This document shows, piece after piece, positions 8,687-32,076 of a stretch of DNA of 64,000 bases. Within the stretch, counting starts at the first letter, position 1. Each line of letters opens with the position of its first letter. The stretch is from assembly GCF_038630985.1 (NCBI RefSeq), contig NZ_CP152049.1:4731501-4795500 (forward strand). The letters run 5' to 3'. Below the pieces are notes generated by a model that saw only the letters and a program-made list of their open reading frames with translations, was not told the origin of the DNA and did no database searches. The DNA is from Paenibacillus sp. FSL H8-0548 (GTDB lineage Bacteria > Bacillota > Bacilli > Paenibacillales > Paenibacillaceae). The translations under genes were made by a program, and so were the position numbers.

Positions 8687-10423
8687 TTAATTGATAAAGC
8701 TCGTATACTGCAGCAATCGTTTCAGCATAACCGCTGCTTGTGCTCTGGTTGCATTCTCTGAAGGAGCAAAGGTCGTATCCGTTTTCCCGTTAATAATGCC
8801 GCCCTCAACGGCCTCTGCTACAGCGTCCTGTGCCCAGCTGCTGATCAATGCAAGATCGGAAAACTTAGCCAAAACGCCGCTAGCTGCAGCAGAATTCGTT
8901 GTTTTGCCTGCTGCACTAATCGCTCTGGCAACCATAACCGCCATCTGCTCACGCGTAATTGTAGCATTCGGCTTAAAACTGTTGTCCTGATAGCCTGTAA
9001 CCAGATCCGCTTTCACAGCTGCTCCAACCGCTCCTGCATACCAGTCGGTTGATTTGACATCTGTGAAGGATGCGGAAGCCGCATCCACATTTAAGCCTAA
9101 AGAACGAACTAACAAAGCTGCGAATTCGGCGCGAGTAATATTACTATTGGGTACAAATGTATCACTAGTAGCTCCCGTGACGATTTGCTTGGAAGCTAAC
9201 AGCTCAATCTCTTCTTTAGCCCAATGCGTACTTACATCCGTAAACGTTTTGACTGAGTTTAGTACGGTATAAATACTATTCCCGTTTCGTTTGAATGTAA
9301 TTTTGTAAGTCCCGTCTGCTTGTTTATTGAATACAGCAGGTACGAATGAGAATGCTCCTGTAGTCGGGTCATAAAGGACGACAGTCGATGTGTCGGCACC
9401 TGATTGAAGCGTTCGGATGATCGATCTTTCAACATAGGTTGTCCCAAAGTTATTAATCTCGACCGACTTCCCATTCCCTGCAGCAGAAATCAAATATACA
9501 ATCGCACTGCCTGCTTGGGAGGTGTTAATTCCTTTCGCACTTTCTTGGATCTTAGCGTTCAGGTCTATATCTACGGTCGAGATATTGATTTGGATGCTGA
9601 TGTTGGCCTCGCCTGTTGCTAAGCTCTCTGCAAGTACAGCAAAATTGATTAGACTAATGGGCAAGGAATACTGGCCATCATTCGTTTGAAGTGAGATGAT
9701 TGTGTTAGGCGCTAGTTTCGCTGCATCGGCTAGAACTGAGGCAGGTAGATTAAACGTTACGCCTTCTCCGGCCTTATTACTGAAGGAAAGAGCTATGATG
9801 GGAGCAGCACCTTGGTTATCTTGACCTGCTGCTTTCGCTAATGCTTCGGCAAGTGCGTTCGCATCTGGCGTAACATTATTTGTCACGTGACCATTCGCTG
9901 CTGCCCCCTGCGTTACTGTATTCTTGCTTGCATCCACATTCACAATATTCGCATTCGTTTGCGGTGGAGTTACTAGATTGTTTGCTTCCACTGCCGTTTC
10001 ATTTGGTGCAGTAATAACAGAATCAATAGGTGGAGTAATAACAGAATCAATAGGTGGAGCTGGCGGTACGATAACATCGGATTGCGTAACAACCAGATCC
10101 TTCGTATCCACAATAGTGCCTTGACCGGCAATAATCTTATAGGTTCCTGCAGCCTCTGAGCTCAGTAAAGAAAATGAGCTTGAGAATTCACCGCCAACTA
10201 CCTTCGTAATGTCATAATAAACCGTACTGGTATTACCAGGACGCAGCACTTGAATAATTACTTCATCTAAAGTAGATGTGCCCGAAATGGTTACAGAACC
10301 GCCCTGCTTGATGGAAGCCACCTGATTCAATATAACAGCCGGATTAGCAGCAAATGCACTTATCGGCACCAGCGACAAACAAATCGCGAATATTAACATC
10401 ATACTTAACTTGCGAAATTTCAC
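8687..10423 (-). CDS. Secreted S-layer-anchored protein with three SLH domains
   Basis: I place the start at GTG 10423, where GAAAGTGAGG precedes it by 9 nt; an in-frame GTG at 10438 is possible but has no site. A signal peptide (MMLIFAICLSLVPISAFA) precedes a beta-rich N-terminal domain, a linker with PPIDSVIT twice in tandem and a mid-region of about 250 residues of unknown fold. Three C-terminal SLH domains follow (about residues 395-575): FTDVSTHWAKEEI, FTDVKSTDWYAGAV and FSDLALISSWAQDAV, each with a TRAE/TRE/TRA motif. SLH triplets bind pyruvylated secondary cell-wall polymers. Specific function is unknown. The upstream 699-residue secreted protein may share its transcript. Confidence 0.85.
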   Translation of the reverse strand: MKFRKLSMMLIFAICLSLVPISAFAANPAVILNQVASIKQGGSVTISGTSTLDEVIIQVLRPGNTSTVYYDITKVVGGEFSSSFSLLSSEAAGTYKIIAGQGTIVDTKDLVVTQSDVIVPPAPPIDSVITPPIDSVITAPNETAVEANNLVTPPQTNANIVNVDASKNTVTQGAAANGHVTNNVTPDANALAEALAKAAGQDNQGAAPIIALSFSNKAGEGVTFNLPASVLADAAKLAPNTIISLQTNDGQYSLPISLINFAVLAESLATGEANISIQINISTVDIDLNAKIQESAKGINTSQAGSAIVYLISAAGNGKSVEINNFGTTYVERSIIRTLQSGADTSTVVLYDPTTGAFSFVPAVFNKQADGTYKITFKRNGNSIYTVLNSVKTFTDVSTHWAKEEIELLASKQIVTGATSDTFVPNSNITRAEFAALLVRSLGLNVDAASASFTDVKSTDWYAGAVGAAVKADLVTGYQDNSFKPNATITREQMAVMVARAISAAGKTTNSAAASGVLAKFSDLALISSWAQDAVAEAVEGGIINGKTDTTFAPSENATRAQAAVMLKRLLQYTSFIN

Positions 10424-20245: not shown

Positions 20246-21139
20246 TCAATCCGTTCCGCGTAAAAATAAAGATGCCGCGCCTAATAGACCTGCTTTATTC
20301 CCAAGGGCTGCTTTAAGAATTTTCACATCCGCAAAGCTTGGCATAATCAAATCCTTTGTCTGTTTCCTGACTAACTCAACTAAATCATCCCGCTCCATTA
20401 CTCCGCCCCCTACAATGACAGCCGGCGGGTTGAAAATATGAATGAGCGAAGCCAACCCTGCTGATACTTCAGTAACCCATGAATGCAGAACTTGACTCAG
20501 TTTATCGTTTCCTATGCCTACTTTATCAAAAAAAACTTTCCCATCCACAACTTCCGGATCAGCTTGTTGAGCCATCCGGACCAATGCTGTCGTCGAGGCA
20601 AAGGTTTCATAGTAAGGCGTTCTCGATCCACTATTCATCTGCGATAGCGAATGGGTAAAGATATGACCGAATTCGGCCGCCGAACCATTAGCTCCTCGAT
20701 AGATCTTATGATTGATTACGATAGCGCCGCCGATCCCTGTACCAAAGGTAAGACATAAGAAATCATGATACGCTGCGGCTGCACCGAAGTAGGCTTCTCC
20801 TAGCGCAGCCGCATTAACATCGTTCTCAACCTGAACAGGCCTTTGAAATCTTTTCTCCAGTATCCCCCTAATGTTCATTCCAGTGTAGTTTGGAATATTC
20901 TCATTAGCATAAGAAATATAACCTTCCTCCGCATTCACTTGACCGGCTGTACTGATTGCAATCGCATCGAAATTATTATACGCTTCCATCTGGGCCATTA
21001 ATCTATCCATTAGATGAGGTCCACCTAAATTCGCTTCAGTTGAATATTCCTTAAATTGATCGATATTTCCCTGTTTGTCGCAGATGCCCATCTTCGTGTT
21101 TGTACCGCCGATATCTACGGCTAAAATGTTGATACTCAT
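20246..21139 (-). CDS. ROK-family sugar kinase lacking the zinc-binding cysteines
   Basis: The protein has 297 residues. It opens with the ATP-binding loop LAVDIGGTNTKMG and has the catalytic block VENDVNAAALGE (Asp is the general base), GTGIGGAIV, and AAEFGH, whose His is a zinc ligand in other ROK proteins. The usual CxCGxxGC segment is replaced by a stretch near 130-145 with no cysteine (HSLSQMNSGSRTPYYETFAS), as in some beta-glucoside or N-acetylmannosamine-type kinases. The substrate is undetermined. No good ribosome binding site precedes the ATG; it starts 4 nt after the stop of a gene fragment, which suggests it was once translationally coupled. Confidence 0.82.
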   Translation of the reverse strand: MSINILAVDIGGTNTKMGICDKQGNIDQFKEYSTEANLGGPHLMDRLMAQMEAYNNFDAIAISTAGQVNAEEGYISYANENIPNYTGMNIRGILEKRFQRPVQVENDVNAAALGEAYFGAAAAYHDFLCLTFGTGIGGAIVINHKIYRGANGSAAEFGHIFTHSLSQMNSGSRTPYYETFASTTALVRMAQQADPEVVDGKVFFDKVGIGNDKLSQVLHSWVTEVSAGLASLIHIFNPPAVIVGGGVMERDDLVELVRKQTKDLIMPSFADVKILKAALGNKAGLLGAASLFLRGTD

Positions 21140-21505: not shown

Positions 21506-21534
21506 AAGGTTAACCAGACTTAACTGGTTAACCT
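21506..21534 (-). terminator. Terminator of the metallophore operon
   Basis: GGTTAACCAG and CTGGTTAACC form a perfect 10-bp stem with a 6-nt loop. On the minus strand it is followed by TTATTTT. It lies about 45 bp beyond the MFS stop. Confidence 0.75.
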
Positions 21535-21576
21535 CCAAGTATCATGAACTAAAGTACCTGCTAGTTTAGCATAGGT

Positions 21577-22860
21577 TCAGCTCCTTGCTTCACTCCTCCA
21601 TTTTGATCGACCCTCTCCGAGAGTTAATCGCTTTTGATAAACGACAACAAAGCAGGCCGTCATCAAAACTAAGGCTGCACATACCGTATAAACCCCAGAG
21701 TAAGAGATTTGATCGGCGATCGGCCCCATTGCAATGCCGCCCAACGAGATGCCGAGATCAGCTGATGCAATAAATAGACCGATTAACACATTGCGCGAAG
21801 AACTAGGCAGAACAAAAGTTAAATAGGTCATCAAGGTTGGATATAACAGCGCCTGGGCAATACCCATTAAAATAGCAGCTGCATATAACAATAGAGCCCC
21901 TTTGGATTCAGAAAATGACAGCAGCAGTGATGCGGCAGCGGCCAATAGCAAAACACCGATAATAAATAGAGAGTGCCATTTTCCGTCTGAAGGAACCCGC
22001 TTGCGAAGCAAGAACCGCGCCAAAACGATCACGGCAGCTTGGATCATTAAATAAACGCCTGCATTCCCGTATTCAATATGATTGGCATACAGCGGAATAA
22101 AAACGACCACCGAACCAAAAACAACTGAAGCAGCAAGCATAACTACACTACAGAGGAGAAAGGAAGGATGCGACACCATTTGACGTATATTTTTTGACAT
22201 CCCTTTAGCATGCTGCTCCTCCCCTTTCTCTTGAGAAACGTTCTGTATGGACGTACTGTATCCAAATAGACCCGTAATGATTACGATTCCGATAACCACT
22301 GCCGTGAAGGAATTCATTCCTCCCCAGTCCCAAATTCCAAAAGCAATTAACGGCCCCACGATTGAGGGCATATAGGTGAAAAGAGAGTACAATGAGACAC
22401 CCTGAGATCGCTCCTTCTCTGATAGAGAATCAATGATCCCCATTTGCAGTGCCATGGAGAAAAATGCGGTGCATATGCCTTGCATTAACCGGGCAACAAA
22501 GAAGCCTTCCCATGCTGTAACGGTATAAAGCAATAGCGCAATCCCATTCACGATTAGCAAGACGCGCAGTACCTTGACAGGGCCATACTTATACACGTAA
22601 TGACCTGCCCACGGACGAAAAAACATGCAAGTCAGCATATAGGTGCCCATAATCAAACCGATCATCGTATTGCTCGCACCCATCGCTTCACTTCTAAGCG
22701 GTATGATCACATTCAAGATGGAATTTGCACTAAAGAAGAGAAACGCAAGCGTATAAAGACGGATAAATGGCCATGAAGTGGCTTGTTGAGTACCCAAATG
22801 CAGACAACTCCCGAAAACATAATGCTTAATCCATAAAAATGGAACTGTTTTGTTCAACAA
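21577..22860 (-). CDS. MFS transporter, probable metallophore exporter (CntE-like position)
   Basis: The protein has up to 427 residues and about 12 membrane segments. The MFS signature lies between segments 2 and 3 (FFRPWAGHYVYKYGP), with long loop 6-7 (STSIQNVSQEKGEE). It is the last gene of the operon and overlaps the SbnA-like gene. The coordinate given assumes a TTG at 22860. A TTG at 22797 with GGGAG 10 nt upstream would give a more usual N-terminus. In staphylopine and staphyloferrin loci an MFS gene at the end of the operon exports the product; the same role is inferred here from position. Confidence 0.8.
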   Translation of the reverse strand: MLNKTVPFLWIKHYVFGSCLHLGTQQATSWPFIRLYTLAFLFFSANSILNVIIPLRSEAMGASNTMIGLIMGTYMLTCMFFRPWAGHYVYKYGPVKVLRVLLIVNGIALLLYTVTAWEGFFVARLMQGICTAFFSMALQMGIIDSLSEKERSQGVSLYSLFTYMPSIVGPLIAFGIWDWGGMNSFTAVVIGIVIITGLFGYSTSIQNVSQEKGEEQHAKGMSKNIRQMVSHPSFLLCSVVMLAASVVFGSVVVFIPLYANHIEYGNAGVYLMIQAAVIVLARFLLRKRVPSDGKWHSLFIIGVLLLAAAASLLLSFSESKGALLLYAAAILMGIAQALLYPTLMTYLTFVLPSSSRNVLIGLFIASADLGISLGGIAMGPIADQISYSGVYTVCAALVLMTACFVVVYQKRLTLGEGRSKWRSEARS

Positions 22861-23965
22861 AATCTCGGGCCAGCAACTCGGAGTTCATACGCAGCGTAGA
22901 TTCTGGCACTTCCAAGCTCTGGGTTAGATCCGTTCTATAATTCGCTGTAGTAGAGGGACAAACGCTCCAGGGCTGGAGCTGTCGTGCCATCCCCCGAATG
23001 GCCTCCATATCTATATTCGTGGGAAAGCCCTGCTGCTCCATCCATTCATCATTGAATAAGGTTGGAATATAGCGTTCACCACCGTCGGCAACCATGCAAA
23101 CAATTCGTTCCTCCGGTTGAAGCGCTTGCGCTAATTTGAGAGCAACCAGCGCACATGCCCCGCTTGAGGGCCCCATCAATATACCTTCATTACGGGCAAA
23201 CGCCCTCGCAGTGAGGAAGGCTTGCTCGTCTGATATTTTATAGGCACGGTCGACATGAGCCATATTCAAATTAGAAGGCGTCCAGCCGAGGCCAATGCCG
23301 GGTATGCGATAGGAATCCGATTGTCCTCCAAATATAGCAGAGCCTACAGCATCCACACCGATAATCTGCACCTCCGGCGCAAAGGTTTTTAAATACTTGG
23401 AGATGCCACCCAGCTGTCCGCCGGTACTAACTGCAGTTATGAAGACCGTAATTTTGTTGGAGCAATCTGCCATGATCTCGCGGGCCGTGCTTTTATAATG
23501 AGCTTCACTATTCAGCAGATTAAAGCACTGGTCTGGGCGGTACGAGTTATCAATCTCCTGCGCTAGCTTGTTGGCTAACGAAATTCTTGTTTTATGATAG
23601 CTGCCGCAATCGTCTTTTTCCGTCACCACAATAACCTCTGCCCCAAAACATTTTAAGAGCGCCAAATTCGCGCTGGTCGTTTTAGGATCTACTAAAATGA
23701 TGACTCGATAGCCTTTGGCCGCACCGATCATCGCCAGGGAGATGCCGAAGTTTCCGCTTGAAGATTCAATAATTGTGCCTCCCGGCTTAAGTAAACCTCT
23801 ACGCTCCGCTTCCTCAACGAGGTAAATAGCAGCGCGGTCCTTAATGCTTCCTCCAGGATTGTATCGTTCATATTTAAACAAAACTTGCCCTTCATTTGCC
23901 CTGTTGCTATTCGGTATCGTAATGAGCGGCGTATTGCCGATGGTCTCTAGTATGCTAGCTATCAT
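22826..23965 (-). CDS. SbnA-like PLP-dependent synthase (cysteine synthase fold)
   Basis: The start at ATG 23965 has GGGAGG 11 nt upstream and begins MIASILETIGNTPLI; it overlaps the ABC ATPase stop by 11 bp. The protein has 379 residues. The PLP lysine is in NPGGSIKDRAA, the substrate loop in SSSGNFGIS, the phosphate-binding loop in VSTGGQLGG, and GPSSGACA follows. SbnA and AesA homologues make N-(1-amino-1-carboxy-2-ethyl)-glutamate-type precursors of diaminopropionate from O-phosphoserine. SbnA proteins are about 325 residues; this one has an extra C-terminal segment of about 55 residues (from EAIRGMARQLQPWS). No SbnB partner is coded nearby, so the product is probably not free diaminopropionate. 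The exact reaction is inferred. Confidence 0.82.
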   Translation of the reverse strand: MIASILETIGNTPLITIPNSNRANEGQVLFKYERYNPGGSIKDRAAIYLVEEAERRGLLKPGGTIIESSSGNFGISLAMIGAAKGYRVIILVDPKTTSANLALLKCFGAEVIVVTEKDDCGSYHKTRISLANKLAQEIDNSYRPDQCFNLLNSEAHYKSTAREIMADCSNKITVFITAVSTGGQLGGISKYLKTFAPEVQIIGVDAVGSAIFGGQSDSYRIPGIGLGWTPSNLNMAHVDRAYKISDEQAFLTARAFARNEGILMGPSSGACALVALKLAQALQPEERIVCMVADGGERYIPTLFNDEWMEQQGFPTNIDMEAIRGMARQLQPWSVCPSTTANYRTDLTQSLEVPESTLRMNSELLARDFVEQNSSIFMD

Positions 23966-25613
23966 AGGTACCCGTTCCTCCCGCTGTAACATAGTGTACT
24001 CGGCTTTGTTCCAATAACCCCTCTTCCATATCGTTCGCGCATTGGAGCAGCAACTGCGTATAAGGCTGCTCGCTTTCATAGAGGTGCGCCACGGGCTTAA
24101 TTTCACAAAAGCTTCCATTGTGCATAACCGCAATTTGATGGCAAAAGGAATGCAGTACTCTAATATCGTGCGAAATCATGAGGATCGAAAACCCAAATTG
24201 TTTATTTAGACGCTGCAGCAAGTGCAATATTTGTGCTTGAACGCTCATATCCAAGGCTGATACTGCTTCATCACAAATTAGAATATCGGGCTCCAGCACC
24301 AGTGCTCTCGCAATCGCTATTCGTTGACATTGCCCCGAGCTAAGCTGAGGTGGTCTCCTATGCTGCGCTTCGTCATGGATTCCTACCTCACGGAGATAAA
24401 ATCTCGCCCGCATCTCCCGCTCCTTACTCTCTCCAATCTGCAAATATTGAAGCGGCTCTTGGACCAATTGCAAAGCTGTACGCCGGGGGTTAAGACTTGC
24501 TCTGGCATCTTGGAACACGAATTGAATATGCTTACATATTTCGCGTCTGGCCTTCCCACGCAAACGGCTAATTTCTGTACCGCGATACAGAATACGACCT
24601 CCGCTGGGTTTCTCCAAACCGGTAAGACACCGGGCTAATGTGGATTTTCCGCAGCCGCTTTGCCCAAGAATCCCTACGATCTCCCCTTCTGCTAATGTAA
24701 GATTTACATCCTGTAAAACAGACCTTTCCTTAAACGTTTTCTTCAGTCCGCTAATTTCAAGCAAAGGCTGATTACGAGGCAGCACTCGATCTGTCGGTGA
24801 GGTTTGGGTTAATCGAGAGCGGGAAGCAAGCAAATGACGCGTATAGGCAGCTTGTGGATCGGAGAATACCTGCTTGGTATCCCCCTCTTCTTCAATCGCG
24901 CCTCTGTTTAATACAATGACTCTATTGCTTATGGCGTTCGCTACGGCAATATCATGGGTAATCAGAAGAACTGTCAATCCAAACTCTTCCTGCATTCTTT
25001 TAAGCAAATCAAGCACCTCTCGCTGACTCACCGTATCTAATGCCGATGTTGGCTCATCAGCAATCAGCACCGCTGGTTTGAGACACAACGCTAGCGCAAG
25101 ACAAATACGCTGACACATGCCTCCACTGAGTTGATAAGGATAACGTTCTAAAACGCTTTCCGTATCCGAAAAATTGAGCATGCTCAGCAATTTGTTCGTT
25201 ATCGGCATAACTTCCTCAGCAGACGCCATGTTGTGATAAAGAAGAACTTCTTTAAAATTCTCTTTTATTTTCAGCACGGGATTTAAGGCCAGCTGCGCAT
25301 CTTGGAAGAGCAAGGCAAGCTGCTTTCCTCTCACGAGGTTCCATTCGATACCTTTTCCGGCAAGATCAGCAGTAAAACCTGAGCCAAGCTGCAGGATTCC
25401 ACTCCCTATATGAGCAGAGGGGGGCAAAAGTCCAGTAATCGCCTTTGCAATGGTTGACTTTCCAGAGCCGCTTTCCCCTAACAAAGCAACGATTTCACCC
25501 TTCTTCATCTCAAAAGCAAGGTTTTTCAGGATGATGGCTGAGCTGTTATTTTGCTTATATTTCACCTGCAAGTCTTTGACTTCCAGCACCTTGTCGCTTT
25601 TCTTAGTCCGCAT
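23955..25613 (-). CDS. Fused double ATPase of a nickel/peptide/opine-type ABC importer
   Basis: The protein has 552 residues with two complete ABC modules in one chain. The first has Walker A GESGSGKST (about 50), signature LSGGMCQRI and Walker B AVLIADEPTSALD. The second has Walker A GQSGCGKST (about 320), signature LSSGQCQRI and Walker B DILICDEAVSALD. In Nik, Cnt and Opp systems these are usually separate D and F proteins, so this is a fusion. The gene lies between the NikC-like permease (11 bp) and the SbnA-like synthase (overlap). Confidence 0.9.
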   Translation of the reverse strand: MRTKKSDKVLEVKDLQVKYKQNNSSAIILKNLAFEMKKGEIVALLGESGSGKSTIAKAITGLLPPSAHIGSGILQLGSGFTADLAGKGIEWNLVRGKQLALLFQDAQLALNPVLKIKENFKEVLLYHNMASAEEVMPITNKLLSMLNFSDTESVLERYPYQLSGGMCQRICLALALCLKPAVLIADEPTSALDTVSQREVLDLLKRMQEEFGLTVLLITHDIAVANAISNRVIVLNRGAIEEEGDTKQVFSDPQAAYTRHLLASRSRLTQTSPTDRVLPRNQPLLEISGLKKTFKERSVLQDVNLTLAEGEIVGILGQSGCGKSTLARCLTGLEKPSGGRILYRGTEISRLRGKARREICKHIQFVFQDARASLNPRRTALQLVQEPLQYLQIGESKEREMRARFYLREVGIHDEAQHRRPPQLSSGQCQRIAIARALVLEPDILICDEAVSALDMSVQAQILHLLQRLNKQFGFSILMISHDIRVLHSFCHQIAVMHNGSFCEIKPVAHLYESEQPYTQLLLQCANDMEEGLLEQSRVHYVTAGGTGTYDS

Positions 25614-25624
25614 CCTGCATTCTC

Positions 25625-26461
25625 CTAAAGTCCTGTCATTTCATAAGGATCAAGCCGGTCCCGTAGTCCCTCACCAATCAAATTAAACGCTAATACGGTC
25701 AAAACAATACATACCGTAGGTCCCAACAAAATGTGCGGAGCCTGCAGAAAGTGATCTCGCCCATCCGCTAGCATACTGCCCCATTCAGGATTGGGAGGCT
25801 GCGCGCCTAAACCAAGGAACGAGAGGGCTGAGATAGACAGAATTAAGCTGCCCAGCTCGAAAGTCGCTAAGATGAGCACAGGGCTCAGCGCTTTTGGAAG
25901 CAGCTCTCGTACCATCATTACACTGCTCTTCGCCCCCAATACTTTTGCTGCAGCAAAAGAGGATTCGTGCTTCGCTTGCAAGACTACACTGCGGGTTAAG
26001 CGCGCAAAGGATACCCACCAAACAGAGACGATAGCAATGAGCAGATGGATAAAGCCTGTGCCGAATAGCCCTGCAATGACCATTGCAAATACCATAACAG
26101 GAAAAGCCAACAGCACATCAATGAGACGCATCAAGATAACATCAAATATAGATTTATGAAACATGCCAGCCAATAATCCAGCTAAAAGTCCAATAAACAG
26201 AGCTGTGCTCAGAGCAAGAATGGACGATAGCAATGTCGTTTTCCCTCCATGGAGCGTTCGTGAGAGAACATCCCTTCCGAATCGATCTGTGCCCAGCGGA
26301 TGCTTAGCGCTTGGTTTCTCCAAACGCTCGGATGACTTCTGCTCCAACGGATCATAAGAAGTAAATAATGGCGCACCTAGGATGAGAACGGCAATGATAC
26401 TAAAAATGGCGATACCGGCCACAAAGCTGATCGAAAGTTTAGTTTGGCGTATCCTATTCAA
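25625..26461 (-). CDS. ABC importer permease, NikC/CntC-like
   Basis: I choose the TTG start at 26461: it follows the NikB-like stop directly (TGAGTTG) and has AAAGGAG 9 nt upstream. An in-frame ATG at 26518 would lie inside the upstream gene. The protein has about 278 residues and 5-6 membrane segments. It has HPLGTDRFGRDVLSRTLHG at the periplasmic end of segment 1, the cytoplasmic EAA-like loop around AAKVLGAKSSVMMVRELLPK, and NPEWGSMLADGRDHF near the C-terminus, all typical of DppC/NikC proteins. It pairs with the gene upstream. Confidence 0.88.
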   Translation of the reverse strand: MNRIRQTKLSISFVAGIAIFSIIAVLILGAPLFTSYDPLEQKSSERLEKPSAKHPLGTDRFGRDVLSRTLHGGKTTLLSSILALSTALFIGLLAGLLAGMFHKSIFDVILMRLIDVLLAFPVMVFAMVIAGLFGTGFIHLLIAIVSVWWVSFARLTRSVVLQAKHESSFAAAKVLGAKSSVMMVRELLPKALSPVLILATFELGSLILSISALSFLGLGAQPPNPEWGSMLADGRDHFLQAPHILLGPTVCIVLTVLAFNLIGEGLRDRLDPYEMTGL

Positions 26462-26462
26462 C

Positions 26463-27416
26463 TCATGCTTCTCCTTTACTGCGGATTCGGGGATCCATTG
26501 CCGCATACACTGCATCAATAACTAAGTTCGTGAACACGACGACCGACACCATGACAAAAGCGTAGCCTTGAATGACTGGATAATCCTTAAGCAAAATACT
26601 ATCGAGGGCATACTTCCCAATGCCAGGCCAAGAAAAAATACTTTCGATGACTACTGCCCCGCTAATGAGCGTCGTAAAAGATAGAGCTACCATGGTAACG
26701 ACGGGAAGCAGAACATTTCTGATTACATGCTTGACGATAAGCTTGATCGCCAAGCCTCTTGAGAGCGCAGCCGTCACATAGATTTGACCAAATTCCGATA
26801 GCATATTAGCTCTGACAACTCGTATAATTTGCGGTGCACCTATTAAGCCTAATGTTACAGCGGGAAGCCACAGCCTTGTCAGGCCTGCATGACTGCTAAT
26901 CTCATAGGCGTTGAACTTTACTGCGAACAAGGATAGCAAGACCAAGCCGATTACAAATCCCGGAATGGAAGCCAGCGCTACACAGATGAACCTAATGATA
27001 TTATCGGAAACCTTTCCTGCACGGAGTGCAGAGACTGTTCCAAGCCATAATCCCAGTACGATTTGAATGAAGAGCGCTGCTATTGACAGCATGATGGTTG
27101 CCGGAAGCCTTTCCGCAATTTCGGAGCTGACGAGTCTGCCAGTATGAATAGAGCTTCCTAAGTCAAAGTGAAGGAGTCGGTTGATCCAATATCCATACTG
27201 CACGACGATGTTTTGATCAAGGCCCCATTGCTCGCGCAGCTCTGCCGCCTTCACCTGATAAGCCTCTGAATCACTCCTGGCAACTTCGATCTGTTTGTTT
27301 AGCAGCATTTGAACAGGATCACCAGGAGCCAAATGCGTCAATACAAATATAATAAGTGTCGCGCAAAATAACGTAATAAACGTTTCGAGTCCTTTACGGA
27401 GGATGGCCTTATACAT
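26463..27416 (-). CDS. ABC importer permease, NikB/CntB-like
   Basis: The protein has 317 residues and six predicted membrane segments. It has the DppB/NikB opening FVLTHLAPGDPVQMLL, the EAA loop TAALSRGLAIKLIVKHVIRN and the C-terminal IFSWPGIGKYALDSILLKDYP. It starts 9 bp after the binding-protein stop and joins the NikC-like permease directly. Together with the fused ATPase and the lipoprotein it makes a complete importer for a metal complex or small peptide. Confidence 0.9.
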   Translation of the reverse strand: MYKAILRKGLETFITLFCATLIIFVLTHLAPGDPVQMLLNKQIEVARSDSEAYQVKAAELREQWGLDQNIVVQYGYWINRLLHFDLGSSIHTGRLVSSEIAERLPATIMLSIAALFIQIVLGLWLGTVSALRAGKVSDNIIRFICVALASIPGFVIGLVLLSLFAVKFNAYEISSHAGLTRLWLPAVTLGLIGAPQIIRVVRANMLSEFGQIYVTAALSRGLAIKLIVKHVIRNVLLPVVTMVALSFTTLISGAVVIESIFSWPGIGKYALDSILLKDYPVIQGYAFVMVSVVVFTNLVIDAVYAAMDPRIRSKGEA

Positions 27417-27425
27417 GACATGTTC

Positions 27426-28982
27426 CTATTTCTGTCCGGCTGCGCTGAATGACAAGTCCGCATTCACTGTATTTTCAAATTGTCTAAAATGCTCTTCAAA
27501 TCCTTGCAGCTCTGCGCTTACCGCAGTAATTTGCGGACGTGGGAATAAAGAAATGATTGGTGCTTGCTGTGCAACCCTCTCATTTATTTGAAGAGCCAGT
27601 TCATGGCGTGCCTCAGCGTCGGACTCCCCTTTCATGCGTGCAAGCAGCTGATTGGTTTCTTCATCGTTAAAACCGCCATAATTTGCGCTTCCTTCCGGTG
27701 AAAACTGGCCTGATAATAAGGTGAATGTGTCACCGAAGGTGTTCCATGCTTCGATCAAGGCATCCCAATCCCCTTTTTCACGGGCAACCTCAATTAAGCT
27801 GTAATCACCATGCTGAACCTCCACCTTCACCCCAATTTGCGTCCATTGGTTTTGAAGAGCTTCCCCCAATGCTTTCTCGCCGCCCCAAGTCATCAATCGA
27901 AGCGTTAACGGCGTTCCATCCTTGTACCGAATATCATCATCACCCTTTATCCATCCTGCTTCATCTAATAGCTGATTGGCTTTAGCTTGATCAGCCTTGG
28001 TATATACGGCATTTCTTGCTTCAGCAAATTCGGGGTTAGAGCCGAGCCAGGTAGAGACGGGGATGCTCTGCCCTTCTGCCGCTAGAACGACCAGCTCCTC
28101 ACGGTCAAGTGCCCAAGATAGCGCTTGCCTTACTCTGGCATCTTCCAATTGGGGTCTGCGCTGATTCATATAAATCGTTTGTGTGTTTGCAACCGGCGCA
28201 GCAGACAATCTGGCCACTTTGCTGTCTTTAAATTGCTCCAAGCTTGTTACAGGTATATTTAATGCAATTTGGCTTCGTCCACTTAATACCGAAAGCACTC
28301 GTGTCTGTCCGTCCGTAATTTCTTCATACACTACCCTTTTAATTTTTGGTTTCGAACCCCAGTAGCTCTCATTGCTTTCCAATACCATTTTTTGTTTGGG
28401 AACAAACTCAACCATTTTATACATGCCCGTGAGATCCATCGTGTCCACAGCATCCTGCTTGGCATCGGCATTATGGATAACGGTCTGATAATAGGAAAGG
28501 TTTAAAGGCACTGGCAGATGTTCGCTGCTTGTTTTGACTTGAAGCGTATAATCATCGAGCTTAGTGAATGCCAGATCAGCTAAAAATGGCTGAGCTTGCA
28601 GATCCTTCTCTCTGGAACGCTCCAAAGAGGCGATTACCGCGCTAGCATCAATGGCCTTGCCGCTCCAAAAGGTCGCATTAGCCCTTAACTTAATTTCCCA
28701 TGTCGTTGAATCTACTTCCTTGACGCTTTCCGCCAAATCCGGCTCTACTTTCCCTTCTGCGTTGACTTTAAATAGCGCTTCCGCTGCCCCGCTATTTCTT
28801 AAATAACTGGAAGTAAGAGGCTGGACTGGATCTAAACTTGCGGCAATTTCTTGCCCTACAATAACGAGCTCTTGATCTTCTATGCTGTCTGATTGCACAT
28901 TCGTTGTAGCCGCGTTGTTTCCACAGCCTGCTGCCATGATGATTACGAATAAAAAGGTGATTAAGAAAATTAACTTCTTCAT
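27426..28982 (-). CDS. Substrate-binding lipoprotein of the importer, NikA/CntA-like (SBP_bac_5)
   Basis: The start at ATG 28982 opens a lipoprotein signal peptide (MKKLIFLITFLFVIIMAAGC; lipobox Cys about 20). An upstream in-frame ATG at 29093 would spoil the signal and overlap the methyltransferase. The mature part (about 498 residues) is the SBP_bac_5 fold, with PDLAESVKEVDSTTWEIKLR near 75, RQALSWALDREELV near 290 and NYGGFNDEETNQLL near 430. CntA and NikA bind metal-opine or metal-histidine complexes; here the ligand is presumed to be the metal chelate made by the same operon. Confidence 0.87.
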   Translation of the reverse strand: MKKLIFLITFLFVIIMAAGCGNNAATTNVQSDSIEDQELVIVGQEIAASLDPVQPLTSSYLRNSGAAEALFKVNAEGKVEPDLAESVKEVDSTTWEIKLRANATFWSGKAIDASAVIASLERSREKDLQAQPFLADLAFTKLDDYTLQVKTSSEHLPVPLNLSYYQTVIHNADAKQDAVDTMDLTGMYKMVEFVPKQKMVLESNESYWGSKPKIKRVVYEEITDGQTRVLSVLSGRSQIALNIPVTSLEQFKDSKVARLSAAPVANTQTIYMNQRRPQLEDARVRQALSWALDREELVVLAAEGQSIPVSTWLGSNPEFAEARNAVYTKADQAKANQLLDEAGWIKGDDDIRYKDGTPLTLRLMTWGGEKALGEALQNQWTQIGVKVEVQHGDYSLIEVAREKGDWDALIEAWNTFGDTFTLLSGQFSPEGSANYGGFNDEETNQLLARMKGESDAEARHELALQINERVAQQAPIISLFPRPQITAVSAELQGFEEHFRQFENTVNADLSFSAAGQK

Positions 28983-29046
28983 GATTGGCCCCCATTTTTC
29001 ACGATATCCAATGATTGGATTTGATTTGTTCTTTTTTTTCCTATAC

Positions 29047-29850
29047 CTATATGGCTTGTGCAATAACCTGCATGCGTGTGCCGAGCAGGTCATGGCTATA
29101 AATCAGAGAATCCTGCAGATCATATTTGTGAACATGAGGAGCTGGCTTATCGAACAGCTGCAGAAGCCGAAAACCACTTAAAGCAAGATAATGAGCCAGC
29201 TCCTGCGGAAATAGTAGACGGTGCTTTAAATGTTCGACTACCGGCTTCATACCTTTGACTGTCCAGCAATAATCCCGCTCCAATAGTTGATTAGCCAAGT
29301 CAATACTAAATCGCGTCTGAAGAGAAATGACCGTTTCATTAACGATTCTCTGTTCAACCAGTTCTTCCGTAAGCCAGCGCTGTCCCTCTTTTGTCAGGAA
29401 GAAAGCAGCATTTCGCATATCCAGATAGAGAAGCCCGCCGCTTTGAAGATGTTTGCGAAAGCACTGCAAGCTGGAGAGAACTGCTTCATTGGAAAAGTTG
29501 TATAAGAACGTGCTGCCTGCACAATACACCGCATCAAATCGTTGATTTATCGAAAAATCGGATTGATCCCCATACACAAATGGCAGTTCAGGATAATGCT
29601 CTTTCGCCCATGACAGCATTTCCTTAGAATTGTCCAGACCAGTGACCGCATAGCCCCTCTCGGTTAGATAAGCCGCTTCGCGGCCCGGACCCGAACCTAC
29701 GTCCAGCACATTTTGGCCAACGTTGTATTCAATAAACAGCTTATGTATGAACTGAGCCATGCTCTGGTCATGCTCCCCGTTAAATGCCAAGTAGAGTGAG
29801 GGATTGGTATGCAGAAAATTATCTGTATCCAGCTTTATATTCATTGACAT
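29047..29850 (-). CDS. Class I SAM-dependent methyltransferase
   Basis: The ATG at 29850 has AGAGGAG 6 nt upstream and overlaps the DUF364 stop by 32 bp; earlier in-frame codons add an arginine-rich tail. The protein has 267 residues with a Rossmann methyltransferase core. Motif I is VLDVGSGPGREA (about 47), the acidic end of beta-2 is GLDNSKEM, motif II-like FDAVYCAGS, and LYLDMRN follows. This matches small-molecule N- or O-methyltransferases. Within a predicted metallophore operon it would methylate an amine or carboxylate of the product; this is inference. Confidence 0.8.
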   Translation of the reverse strand: MSMNIKLDTDNFLHTNPSLYLAFNGEHDQSMAQFIHKLFIEYNVGQNVLDVGSGPGREAAYLTERGYAVTGLDNSKEMLSWAKEHYPELPFVYGDQSDFSINQRFDAVYCAGSTFLYNFSNEAVLSSLQCFRKHLQSGGLLYLDMRNAAFFLTKEGQRWLTEELVEQRIVNETVISLQTRFSIDLANQLLERDYCWTVKGMKPVVEHLKHRLLFPQELAHYLALSGFRLLQLFDKPAPHVHKYDLQDSLIYSHDLLGTRMQVIAQAI

Positions 29851-30682
29851 GCTGCTGCTCCTCTCTGCTTGAATAGCAATAGAGCTGTGATGCGGTTGCA
29901 CTAAATTGGGTGAACGGGAATGGCTCCGCAACTAGCGAAGTGACGCCCTGCTTCACAAATTGGGCAATAACCGCACTACCTGTTTGGGCATAAACGGTTA
30001 AAGGAATCTTTCTTTCCCTGACTCTCGATAAAATATGATCAAAGCTTCCATTACTCAAAGTCATACCTGTGCAAATGACACGATTCGCTTGATCAAGCAC
30101 GATGTCCATATCCTTCTCCACCGTTTCTCCCCACTGGGTTTCTTTAAGGTGCAAATCACAAGGCAGACAAGTTCCTCCGCTTTGTTTGATCGCTTCCACT
30201 AATGGATTGACTACACCAATTAAAGCAACCTTCTCTCCTGCTTGAATAGTTGCAGTATTCGCAATCAACATATCACGCTGCTTCGCTTTCTGAATGGGAG
30301 TGCCCCCAGCCACTTCGATGATGCTGGAGCAGCACTCCGGATGCGGAAAAACAGCACCGAGATAAGCATCCATGGCGGCAATTTGCACAGGCAGCCGTTT
30401 ATCCCGCAGCACCTCATCCAGAGGAAGTCCTGAGAACTCGGCTCCAGATTCCATATTCAATTGATCAGATGTATGTGAGCATGCACCGAAGGACGCTTCC
30501 ACTCTTAATAACAAATAATAATTATGATATTTGGTCGTAGAGGACGGGAACTGCGTCGTTTGATAGACATTGGATGCCCCTGTGACGATCAGTGTTTCTG
30601 GCTTAGGACCCAGATTTCCTTCCAATATGCCATCCAACAATTCAGCCACCGAGCTAAAATCATTTTGTTTCGTTTGGATCAT
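29819..30682 (-). CDS. DUF4213/DUF364 protein (putative heavy-metal-chelation family)
   Basis: The protein has 287 residues. The N-terminal part (about 1-95) resembles DUF4213 and the C-terminal part (about 105-270) the Rossmann-like DUF364 domain: EKVALIGVVNPLVEAIKQSG, ANRVICTGMTLSNGSFDHIL and a final TSLVAEPFPFTQFSATASQL. A conserved histidine/cysteine patch is visible around VFPHPECCSSI and CLPCDLHL. Pfam labels DUF364 'putative heavy-metal chelation'; no reaction is established. ATGA overlap with the upstream ATP-grasp gene and a 32-bp overlap with the methyltransferase make it an integral operon member. It could be a biosynthetic enzyme or a metal-handling protein. Confidence 0.8.
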   Translation of the reverse strand: MIQTKQNDFSSVAELLDGILEGNLGPKPETLIVTGASNVYQTTQFPSSTTKYHNYYLLLRVEASFGACSHTSDQLNMESGAEFSGLPLDEVLRDKRLPVQIAAMDAYLGAVFPHPECCSSIIEVAGGTPIQKAKQRDMLIANTATIQAGEKVALIGVVNPLVEAIKQSGGTCLPCDLHLKETQWGETVEKDMDIVLDQANRVICTGMTLSNGSFDHILSRVRERKIPLTVYAQTGSAVIAQFVKQGVTSLVAEPFPFTQFSATASQLYCYSSREEQQHVNEYKAGYR

Positions 30683-31938
30683 ACCGTTGCCTCATGGTTA
30701 TCGAAGCTAACGATAATGCGCTTAAGCGCTTCTTCTGCATACCATCTGGCTTGTTGTCCTACCGTATCCTCAGTGATAACGTAGCCAAGGTAGCAGGCGT
30801 TATCAATAGGAGGCGAAACATATTGCCCCTCACAGCTCTCAAGCTTGTATCGGGCGACGTGTCTATCCGTTTCTAGTGACCCCAGCCCCTTCAGTTGGGT
30901 AATCGTACCTCCTTGAGAAGGAACGAGGAACATCACGGCAGCACTGACAATTCCGTTATCCTTAGAAACAAGCACAGGCTTGATCCCTAAGGAGAGATCG
31001 ATAAAAGCATGGAGCAAATCAATGTCTGTCACCCGTTGGATGAGCTCTACGATGTAATTGCCGGCCGTTCTTGGATTAATTTCAATTAAACGCGGACCAT
31101 TAGCCGTAATTTTCACTTCCGTATGAGCAATGCCGTGGTCGTAGCCTACAGCTCCCAGCGCTTCTCTAACAAATTGAGTGACTTCAGATTGCGTTTCTTC
31201 ACTTAGCTTTGCCGGGAACATATGGCCATTTTCTATGAAAAAAGGAGTCCCGGTAATCGATTTATCTGTAATGCCCAATATCGTGATTTCGCCATTAAAT
31301 GAGACGCTCTCTACGCTAACCTCATCGCCTTCGATGAACTCTTCAATAAGACATATGCTGTCTCTTTCCTGATCCCGGAAATTAAGCGGAAAGTCTTCAA
31401 GAGCCTGATAAGCGTCCTGCAATTCATTTTTATTTTGAATGAAGCTCACAAAGGCACTGGATGCCAGATCGACCGGCTTGATCACCAATGGATAACCGAT
31501 TTCCTCTGCAGCCAGCTCCGCAGCCTCCAAGCTGCGTGCGAGTCGATATTTCGGATTGGCTAGTCCCGCACGGTCCAACGCCTGCCGCATGAGATGTTTA
31601 TGCCGCACAGTGTTTACAGTCTCCGGAAACGGACAAGGCAGATCAAACGCTTTGGCAACCTCTCTCACGGCGTCAATATAGTAATCACAAACGGTAATAA
31701 CCCCGTCAAAAGAGTAAGGCCGTAGAAACTCGATTAAGCTGGCATAATCATTTGTTTCCGTAACCAGAACAGAATCTGCATGCTGCACCACTGGATGTTT
31801 CTCCGGACGTATCGCACTCTGGTAATGCTCAAGCTTACGTGTAACAAAGGTGTACGTGTGACCTAGTGACTTCAGGAGCGGAGGCAGCAGATTACCGCTT
31901 GCTCCAACCCAGCTCTCAATCATTAAAAGATGTGCCAT
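30679..31938 (-). CDS. ATP-grasp carboxylate-amine ligase, first gene of the predicted metallophore operon
   Basis: The protein has 419 residues with a preATP-grasp N-terminal domain (1-110). The ATP-grasp core has the ATP-binding lysine in YPLVIKPVDLASS, EEFIEGDEVSVE, and the Mg-binding HTEVKITANGPRLIEINPR (Glu, Asn). This arrangement fits L-amino-acid ligases that join a carboxylate to an amino group through an acyl phosphate. It is the promoter-proximal gene, with GGAGG 6 nt before the ATG and the Zur-box-like operator just upstream. It would couple two amino-acid units of the chelator; the substrates are unknown. Confidence 0.85.
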   Translation of the reverse strand: MAHLLMIESWVGASGNLLPPLLKSLGHTYTFVTRKLEHYQSAIRPEKHPVVQHADSVLVTETNDYASLIEFLRPYSFDGVITVCDYYIDAVREVAKAFDLPCPFPETVNTVRHKHLMRQALDRAGLANPKYRLARSLEAAELAAEEIGYPLVIKPVDLASSAFVSFIQNKNELQDAYQALEDFPLNFRDQERDSICLIEEFIEGDEVSVESVSFNGEITILGITDKSITGTPFFIENGHMFPAKLSEETQSEVTQFVREALGAVGYDHGIAHTEVKITANGPRLIEINPRTAGNYIVELIQRVTDIDLLHAFIDLSLGIKPVLVSKDNGIVSAAVMFLVPSQGGTITQLKGLGSLETDRHVARYKLESCEGQYVSPPIDNACYLGYVITEDTVGQQARWYAEEALKRIIVSFDNHEATV

Positions 31939-31951
31939 AATGAACCTCCAT

Positions 31952-32008
31952 AAATCGTAATGATTACTATTAGTTGCGAGTATACTATACAGGATTTTAC
32001 ATTGTCAA
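31952..32008 (-). promoter_or_regulatory. Sigma-A promoter with overlapping Zur-box-like operator
   Basis: On the minus strand, TTGACA (32003-32008), an 18-bp spacer and TATACT (31979-31984) form a near-consensus promoter. At 31952-31972, just downstream of the -10, the plus strand reads AAATCGTAAT, then G, then ATTACTATTA. The Bacillus Zur box is AAATCGTAAT-N-ATTACGATTT, so the left half is exact and the right half keeps ATTAC and differs at three positions. A repressor there would block initiation. The ATP-grasp ATG follows 14 bp later. Confidence 0.75.
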
Positions 32009-32033: not shown

Positions 32034-32076
32034 CAAACAAAAAAAAGCGAGTTCTGCGCAGACACGCAAACCCGCC
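32034..32076 (-). terminator. Terminator of the 7TM histidine kinase gene
   Basis: On the minus strand a stem GCGGGTT / GAACTCGC with GCGTGTCTGCGC between is followed by eight T residues. It lies about 95 bp beyond the kinase stop and 40 bp ahead of the metallophore promoter. Confidence 0.7.

Follow-up and report, generated by a model that had tools for sequence, protein, structure and literature searches.

Which product, and which metal, does an operon serve that joins four biosynthetic-type enzymes to an importer and a metallophore exporter in a genome where neither CntL nor CntM has been found? This question is raised by nine genes of Paenibacillus sp. FSL H8-0548, the genome of which is a single contig of 7.35 Mb; they lie within a stretch of 64,000 nucleotides (the window, to which the coordinates of the operon refer), and an earlier note had proposed that they form a zinc-metallophore operon of unfamiliar composition. 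The data presented here point to a Zur-controlled metallophore system for zinc, or for a broader range of metals, a prediction drawn from sequence to which we assign a probability of about 0.78.

Organization of the Operon

The operon extends on the minus strand from the start of the ATP-grasp gene at 31938 to the stop of the MFS gene at 21577, with one promoter carrying a Zur-type operator and a strong hairpin after the last gene, and its order, 5′ to 3′, is ATP-grasp ligase, DUF364 protein, methyltransferase, substrate-binding protein (SBP), two permeases, fused double ABC ATPase, SbnA-like PLP enzyme and MFS protein. The nine reading frames listed in the earlier note were all recovered open in their place and strand, and Pfam and NCBI models return the families ascribed to them. 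Several starts called by the ORF finder are too early, and the junctions were recomputed with likelier ones, namely 29850 for the methyltransferase (29047–29850; ORF opening at 29931), 28982 for the SBP (27426–28982; ORF opening at 29093) and 23965, with a Shine-Dalgarno sequence, for the SbnA-like enzyme (22826–23965; ORF opening at 24133). With these starts, seven of the eight junctions overlap or are at most 11 bp apart, the methyltransferase and SBP genes being separated by 64 bp, which upholds the tight packing described before.

The single promoter with a Zur-box-like operator is likewise borne out: a sigma-70-type promoter, TTGACA-18-TATACT, matches 11 of 12 consensus positions at 31979–32008 (minus strand) and ranks first among three promoter-like matches upstream of the operon (0.9 in shuffled sequences), and the candidate operator TCGTAATGATTACTA occupies 31955–31969, between this promoter and the start codon. 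Downstream, a terminator-like hairpin of 12 bp followed by TTATTTT (21506–21535, minus strand; −18.5 kcal/mol, z −4.6) emerges from a folding-energy test, although the pattern scan for terminators did not report it. The neighbors, judged by eye, are a ROK-type kinase gene downstream (20246–21139, 437 bp from the operon) and a histidine-kinase-like gene upstream, and neither appears to belong to the operon. Another terminator-like hairpin, at 32053–32070, separates the histidine-kinase-like gene from the operon promoter.

Biosynthetic Enzymes

The first gene (30679–31938) codes, by its domains, for an ATP-grasp enzyme of the L-amino acid ligase type, with ATP-grasp_4 (96.2 bits) and LAL_C2 (46.4 bits) both above the Pfam cut-off; its best PDB sequence matches are the L-amino acid ligases BL00235, the closest chain, and BacD, and by family models it weakly resembles DdaF (60 bits). 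The core gene (29819–30682) belongs to DUF364 (PF04016) both by Pfam score (38.5 bits against a cut-off of 23) and by its fold, with enolase-N-like and Rossmann-like parts, and the two proteins occur naturally fused as one protein of 691 residues in Massilia frigida (L097:8720-10795). The third product is a SAM methyltransferase with PF13649 as its best family.

Regarding the PLP enzyme, of the beta-replacement type, SbnA is the best-scoring model, at 309 bits below its cut-off of 350, with cystathionine beta-synthase at 306; the counterparts of the SbnA active-site residues Arg132 and Ser185 are present, and Tyr152 is replaced by Cys. Pfam results for the nine genes contain no SbnB, IucA/IucC or argininosuccinate-lyase domain, and a search for SbnB with PF02423 returned two matches in this genome, both outside the operon. 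Among DUF364-bearing relatives, PF02423 has no match in the single-contig genome G389 and three in G318. The SbnA-like enzyme, which in the earlier note pointed to an O-phosphoserine-derived diamino acid, is borne out; the hint of free diaminopropionate is weakened by the lack of SbnB in the operon and of PF02423 in G389, though G318 has three matches.

Exporter, Importer and Absence of CntL and CntM

The last gene (21577–22860) belongs to the CntE family of MFS metallophore exporters, scoring 584.6 bits on the NCBI equivalog model NF047574 (cut-off 235; the CntE of the CntM locus L155 reaches 710), and is 58–60% identical to the best CntE in the loci of three of the 118 relatives with a CntM match. 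The importer comprises the SBP_bac_5 lipoprotein, NikA/Opp-like and with an MKKL...AAGC lipobox recognized by eye, a NikB/Opp2B-like permease (26463–27416) and a NikC/Opp2C-like permease (25625–26518), both assigned by Pfam and below the NCBI model cut-offs, and the ATPase (23955–25613), whose NikD-like and NikE-like halves exceed the respective cut-offs. Its parts are only 24–39% identical to those of the same three CntM loci, and none attains the cut-off of a Cnt model, the nearest being CntF (367 against 385); the SBP reaches 131 bits on the CntA model NF047575 (cut-off 800), on which the CntA of L155 scores 1015, and its best PDB matches are nickel-binding proteins. Thus, of the full Nik/Cnt-type transport set claimed previously, the Cnt label stands for the exporter, whereas the importer is, by its family scores, Nik/Opp2-like.

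In a tree of 25 rows, one exporter from a DUF364-type locus (that of L043) clusters with those of CntM loci at a support of 99/100, so exporters seem to move between DUF364 and CntM systems. This locus, from Bacillaceae bacterium SAS-127, has its biosynthetic half divergent from its transport half and carries a Fur-type box in addition to the CntE-grouping exporter.

The absence of CntL and CntM from the genome, also claimed before, was confirmed: a PF10100 search for CntM gives no match here and is positive in 118 of 394 Paenibacillaceae genomes (a few of them fragments), and the CntL of L155 as query finds in this genome only a partial match of 26%, elsewhere than the operon, the same query recovering orthologues at 89% in G361 and 62% in G083, with a second G361 match at 24%. 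DUF364 orthologues are present in 12 of the 394 genomes and none of these has CntM, against about 3.6 expected (hypergeometric P 0.013, shared ancestry being ignored).

Conservation in Other Bacteria

One profile search of genome contigs with the DUF364 alignment yielded 314 relatives, the closest named ones being Paenibacillus spp.; the best 80 were counted, with genes scored by direct BLAST at 1e-20 anywhere in loci of up to about 21 kb and neighbor family labels taken from single representatives. An SbnA-like enzyme is present in 74 of these best 80 loci, across several phyla, and two of the loci without it (L082 and L091) are truncated just before DUF364. The earlier note had proposed a search for co-occurrence of such genes; in Bacilli, the SbnA-like enzyme, ATP-grasp, SBP, both permeases and ABC ATPase are each found together with DUF364 in 23 of 23 loci (the SbnA-like gene of L033 being a fragment only), and the methyltransferase and CntE-type MFS in 20 each. 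The three Bacilli loci missing the methyltransferase, L033, L045 and L050, retain most of the other genes, and methylation therefore looks optional.

Outside Bacilli the neighborhood changes. The 16 Gram-negative and Acidobacteria loci hold the SbnA-like enzyme and ATP-grasp (15 each), an MFS protein of another family (16), a GHMP kinase (15) and a TonB receptor (12); in Herpetosiphon, the SbnA-like enzyme, ATP-grasp, methyltransferase and MFS occur in all three loci; and the 30 actinobacterial loci carry the SbnA-like enzyme (29), FecCD (26), a siderophore-type SBP (24), an MFS of a third family (23), GHMP kinase (19) and a HemK-like methyltransferase (14), with an Opp-type permease in two and ATP-grasp in one. 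In the eight other or short Bacillota loci, a group that also takes in MAG contigs of Treponema (two) and Tannerella (one), both the SbnA-like enzyme and ATP-grasp number four. The transport genes near DUF364 differ by group, being of the Opp/Nik, FecCD or TonB type, although FecCD in a flank is no proof of membership, since it is also found in two Bacilli loci and one Herpetosiphon locus. In Tissierella (L060:6362-9882) and a Treponema MAG (L047:5542-9109), a pair of ABC-type proteins of about 580–605 aa adjoins DUF364, with no ATP-grasp nearby. Many Streptomyces and Lysobacter clusters combine the SbnA-like enzyme with a GHMP-type kinase (L119:1565-2590, L067:6349-7347), which might be the source of a phospho-amino acid substrate.

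Importers of the SBP_bac_5/BPD families also transport peptides, and the presence of one in this operon would fit a system for the uptake and catabolism of peptides or amino acids that acquired biosynthetic-looking enzymes. Such an origin is, however, very improbable in view of the CntE-family export pump, a ligase of the amide-bond-forming type, the Zur-type control and the FecCD/TonB genes at homologous loci; among the annotated neighbor families, as labeled by their representatives, none ties a homologous operon to peptide catabolism.

Candidate Zur Operators

The operator TCGTAATGATTACTA matches 13 of 14 positions of the pattern TCGTAATNATTACGA and lies at about +4 to +18 relative to the expected transcription start of the promoter. 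In the whole genome, TCGTAATNATTACGA occurs at seven sites with at most one mismatch and the reversed pattern at four, so the number of sites proves little by itself and the weight falls on their locations. Three of the seven are situated 16–21 bp upstream of called genes: one precedes this operon, one a gene for a ZigA-like zinc GTPase (539 bits, family cut-off 600) and one an ArsP_1/DUF1980 gene pair, which we take to be the counterpart of ycgRQ, regulated by Zur in B. subtilis; the remaining four are inside ORFs, including the MFS gene of the operon itself. This last site, CCGTAATGATTACGA (22272–22286, one mismatch), is possibly due to chance. A shorter 13-mer pattern, with two mismatches allowed, gave no excess over its reversed control in the whole genome (488 against 586).

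Among the 23 Bacilli loci, the box ahead of ATP-grasp scores higher than every one of 200 shuffles in 15 but not in the other eight, and when 15-mers for Zur, Fur and PerR are compared, Zur is best or tied-best in 22, Fur being best only in L043, where a perfect Fur consensus, TGATAATGATTATCA, is located at about 8698–8718, at the called start of ATP-grasp. Since that locus carries it in place of a Zur box, iron may apply in some relatives. For Actinobacteria, whole loci were scanned with TGANAATNATTNTCA, which we take to be the Zur-type palindrome of that group: of the 30 loci, 20 match it at no fewer than 11 of its 12 positions and 12 of these at all of them, and where it surpassed three shuffles of the same locus, these had peaked at 8–10. 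The 8.3-Mb genome of Streptomyces sp. WAC 01529 (locus L089) contains only two TGANAATNATTNTCA sites with at most one mismatch, the perfect one at the DUF364 cluster, between the GHMP kinase and PLP enzyme genes, and the other, which deviates at one position, where a ZnuA-family gene begins. The L105 genome has two perfect sites, each of them at its cluster, and the genome of L081 has no perfect site. A candidate Zur operator at the promoter, held in common with zinc-type genes and conserved in relatives, leads us to infer that the operon is Zur-regulated.

It is conceivable that the same architecture naturally serves nickel, cobalt or iron, with zinc acting merely as the signal of the regulator or being uninvolved in some species, given that family models label the importer parts as nickel/Opp2, that the SBP finds its closest PDB match in a nickel-binding protein and that L043 has a Fur-type box. 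We consider this unlikely, since the operator of the operon itself is of the Zur type and shared with the ZigA-like gene, and the box of the Streptomyces cluster is also present at a ZnuA-family gene. Operator conservation bears as well on a quite improbable alternative, a diaminopropionate-containing dipeptide antibiotic resembling dapdiamide or bacilysin, which would be made by an SbnA-type enzyme and an L-amino acid ligase, with the MFS protein as a self-resistance pump. The similarity of the ATP-grasp enzyme to BL00235, BacD and, weakly, DdaF agrees with it, as do the SbnA-like enzyme and the MFS pump, but a dedicated importer in the same operon, the Zur-type operator conserved in Bacilli relatives, the assignment of the MFS protein to CntE and the many homologues adjoining siderophore-type importers or TonB receptors do not.

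Proposed Pathway

The metallophore reading is supported by the conserved operators in Bacilli and in many actinobacterial loci, the exchanged importers and the non-overlap with CntM. Under zinc starvation, Zur would be released and the operon derepressed; the SbnA-like enzyme might then link an activated serine, O-phosphoserine, through its beta-carbon to the amino group of another amino acid, the product being an opine-like N-(2-amino-2-carboxyethyl)-amino acid that DUF364 would convert, the ATP-grasp ligase could form an amide bond to a further amino acid, and the methyltransferase could optionally methylate the product, presumably an opine-like aminopolycarboxylate. The CntE-type MFS protein would secrete this metallophore, and the SBP/permease/ATPase importer would retrieve its metal complex, with zinc first and probably also nickel and cobalt. 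The detailed chemistry of these steps is tentative. With about even odds, DUF364 and the SbnA-like PLP enzyme constitute the core of a further zincophore class spanning phyla, in addition to CntLM opines, EDDS and NRPS compounds; DUF364 would there be a new enzyme turning an SbnA-type adduct into an opine-like chelator, and ATP-grasp, methyltransferase, kinase and importer would be exchangeable modules.

Comparison with Known Systems

The staphylopine, pseudopaline and bacillopaline systems, with CntKLM for synthesis, CntE for export and CntABCDF for import, share with this operon a CntE-family exporter above the cut-off, an importer of SBP, two permeases and ABC ATPase, and Zur-type control. 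They differ from it in that no CntM or CntL was found in the genome, in that the importer is 24–39% identical in the three CntM loci compared, and in that SbnA-like, DUF364 and ATP-grasp enzymes stand in for biosynthesis. Passages of a survey of opine zincophores report a PF13649 methyltransferase in eight opine-type clusters and indicate that zincophores independent of CntM escape the survey (PMC7438024). With the SbnA/SbnB step of staphyloferrin B, the operon has in common an SbnA-like PLP enzyme with the Arg132 and Ser185 counterparts, but the SbnA score is below the cut-off, Tyr152 is a Cys, and there is neither SbnB nor an IucA/IucC synthetase.

The nearest concepts, compared by description, are the antiSMASH aminopolycarboxylate class, as outlined in parts of PMC10320115, and the Zur-controlled [S,S]-EDDS of Amycolatopsis japonicum, presented in excerpts from PMC6103462, PMC4993170 and PMC9252823 as a zincophore made by a route that is neither NRPS nor NIS. 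The likeness to EDDS, taken from these descriptions, is that of a proposed Zur-controlled non-NRPS, non-NIS zincophore. EDDS synthesis employs an argininosuccinate-lyase-type enzyme, and the operon is without such a domain.

As for the individual enzymes, the ATP-grasp protein shares ATP-grasp_4 and LAL_C2 with the L-amino acid ligases BL00235 and BacD and differs from them by its metallophore-type operon setting. The DUF364 protein is 15% identical to Dhaf4260 (3l5o), for which passages of the 2010 structure paper favor flavin- or pterin-like products and mention no zinc operon or link to SbnA; in the literature since that paper we found no function assigned to DUF364, which now gains a testable role in a pathway. 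Among the open PMC papers listed by searches for this gene set, no title or abstract opening, and no passage of PMC2954201 or PMC7438024, gives a description of it. The predicted metallophore class would be invisible to CntM-based surveys, its compact operons are identified in culturable genera (Paenibacillus, Saccharibacillus and Streptomyces), and, if true, it would help to account for the way in which soil bacteria that lack CntLM compete for zinc. Secreted metallophore systems are already known, and on our best reading this one has a core independent of CntL and CntM.
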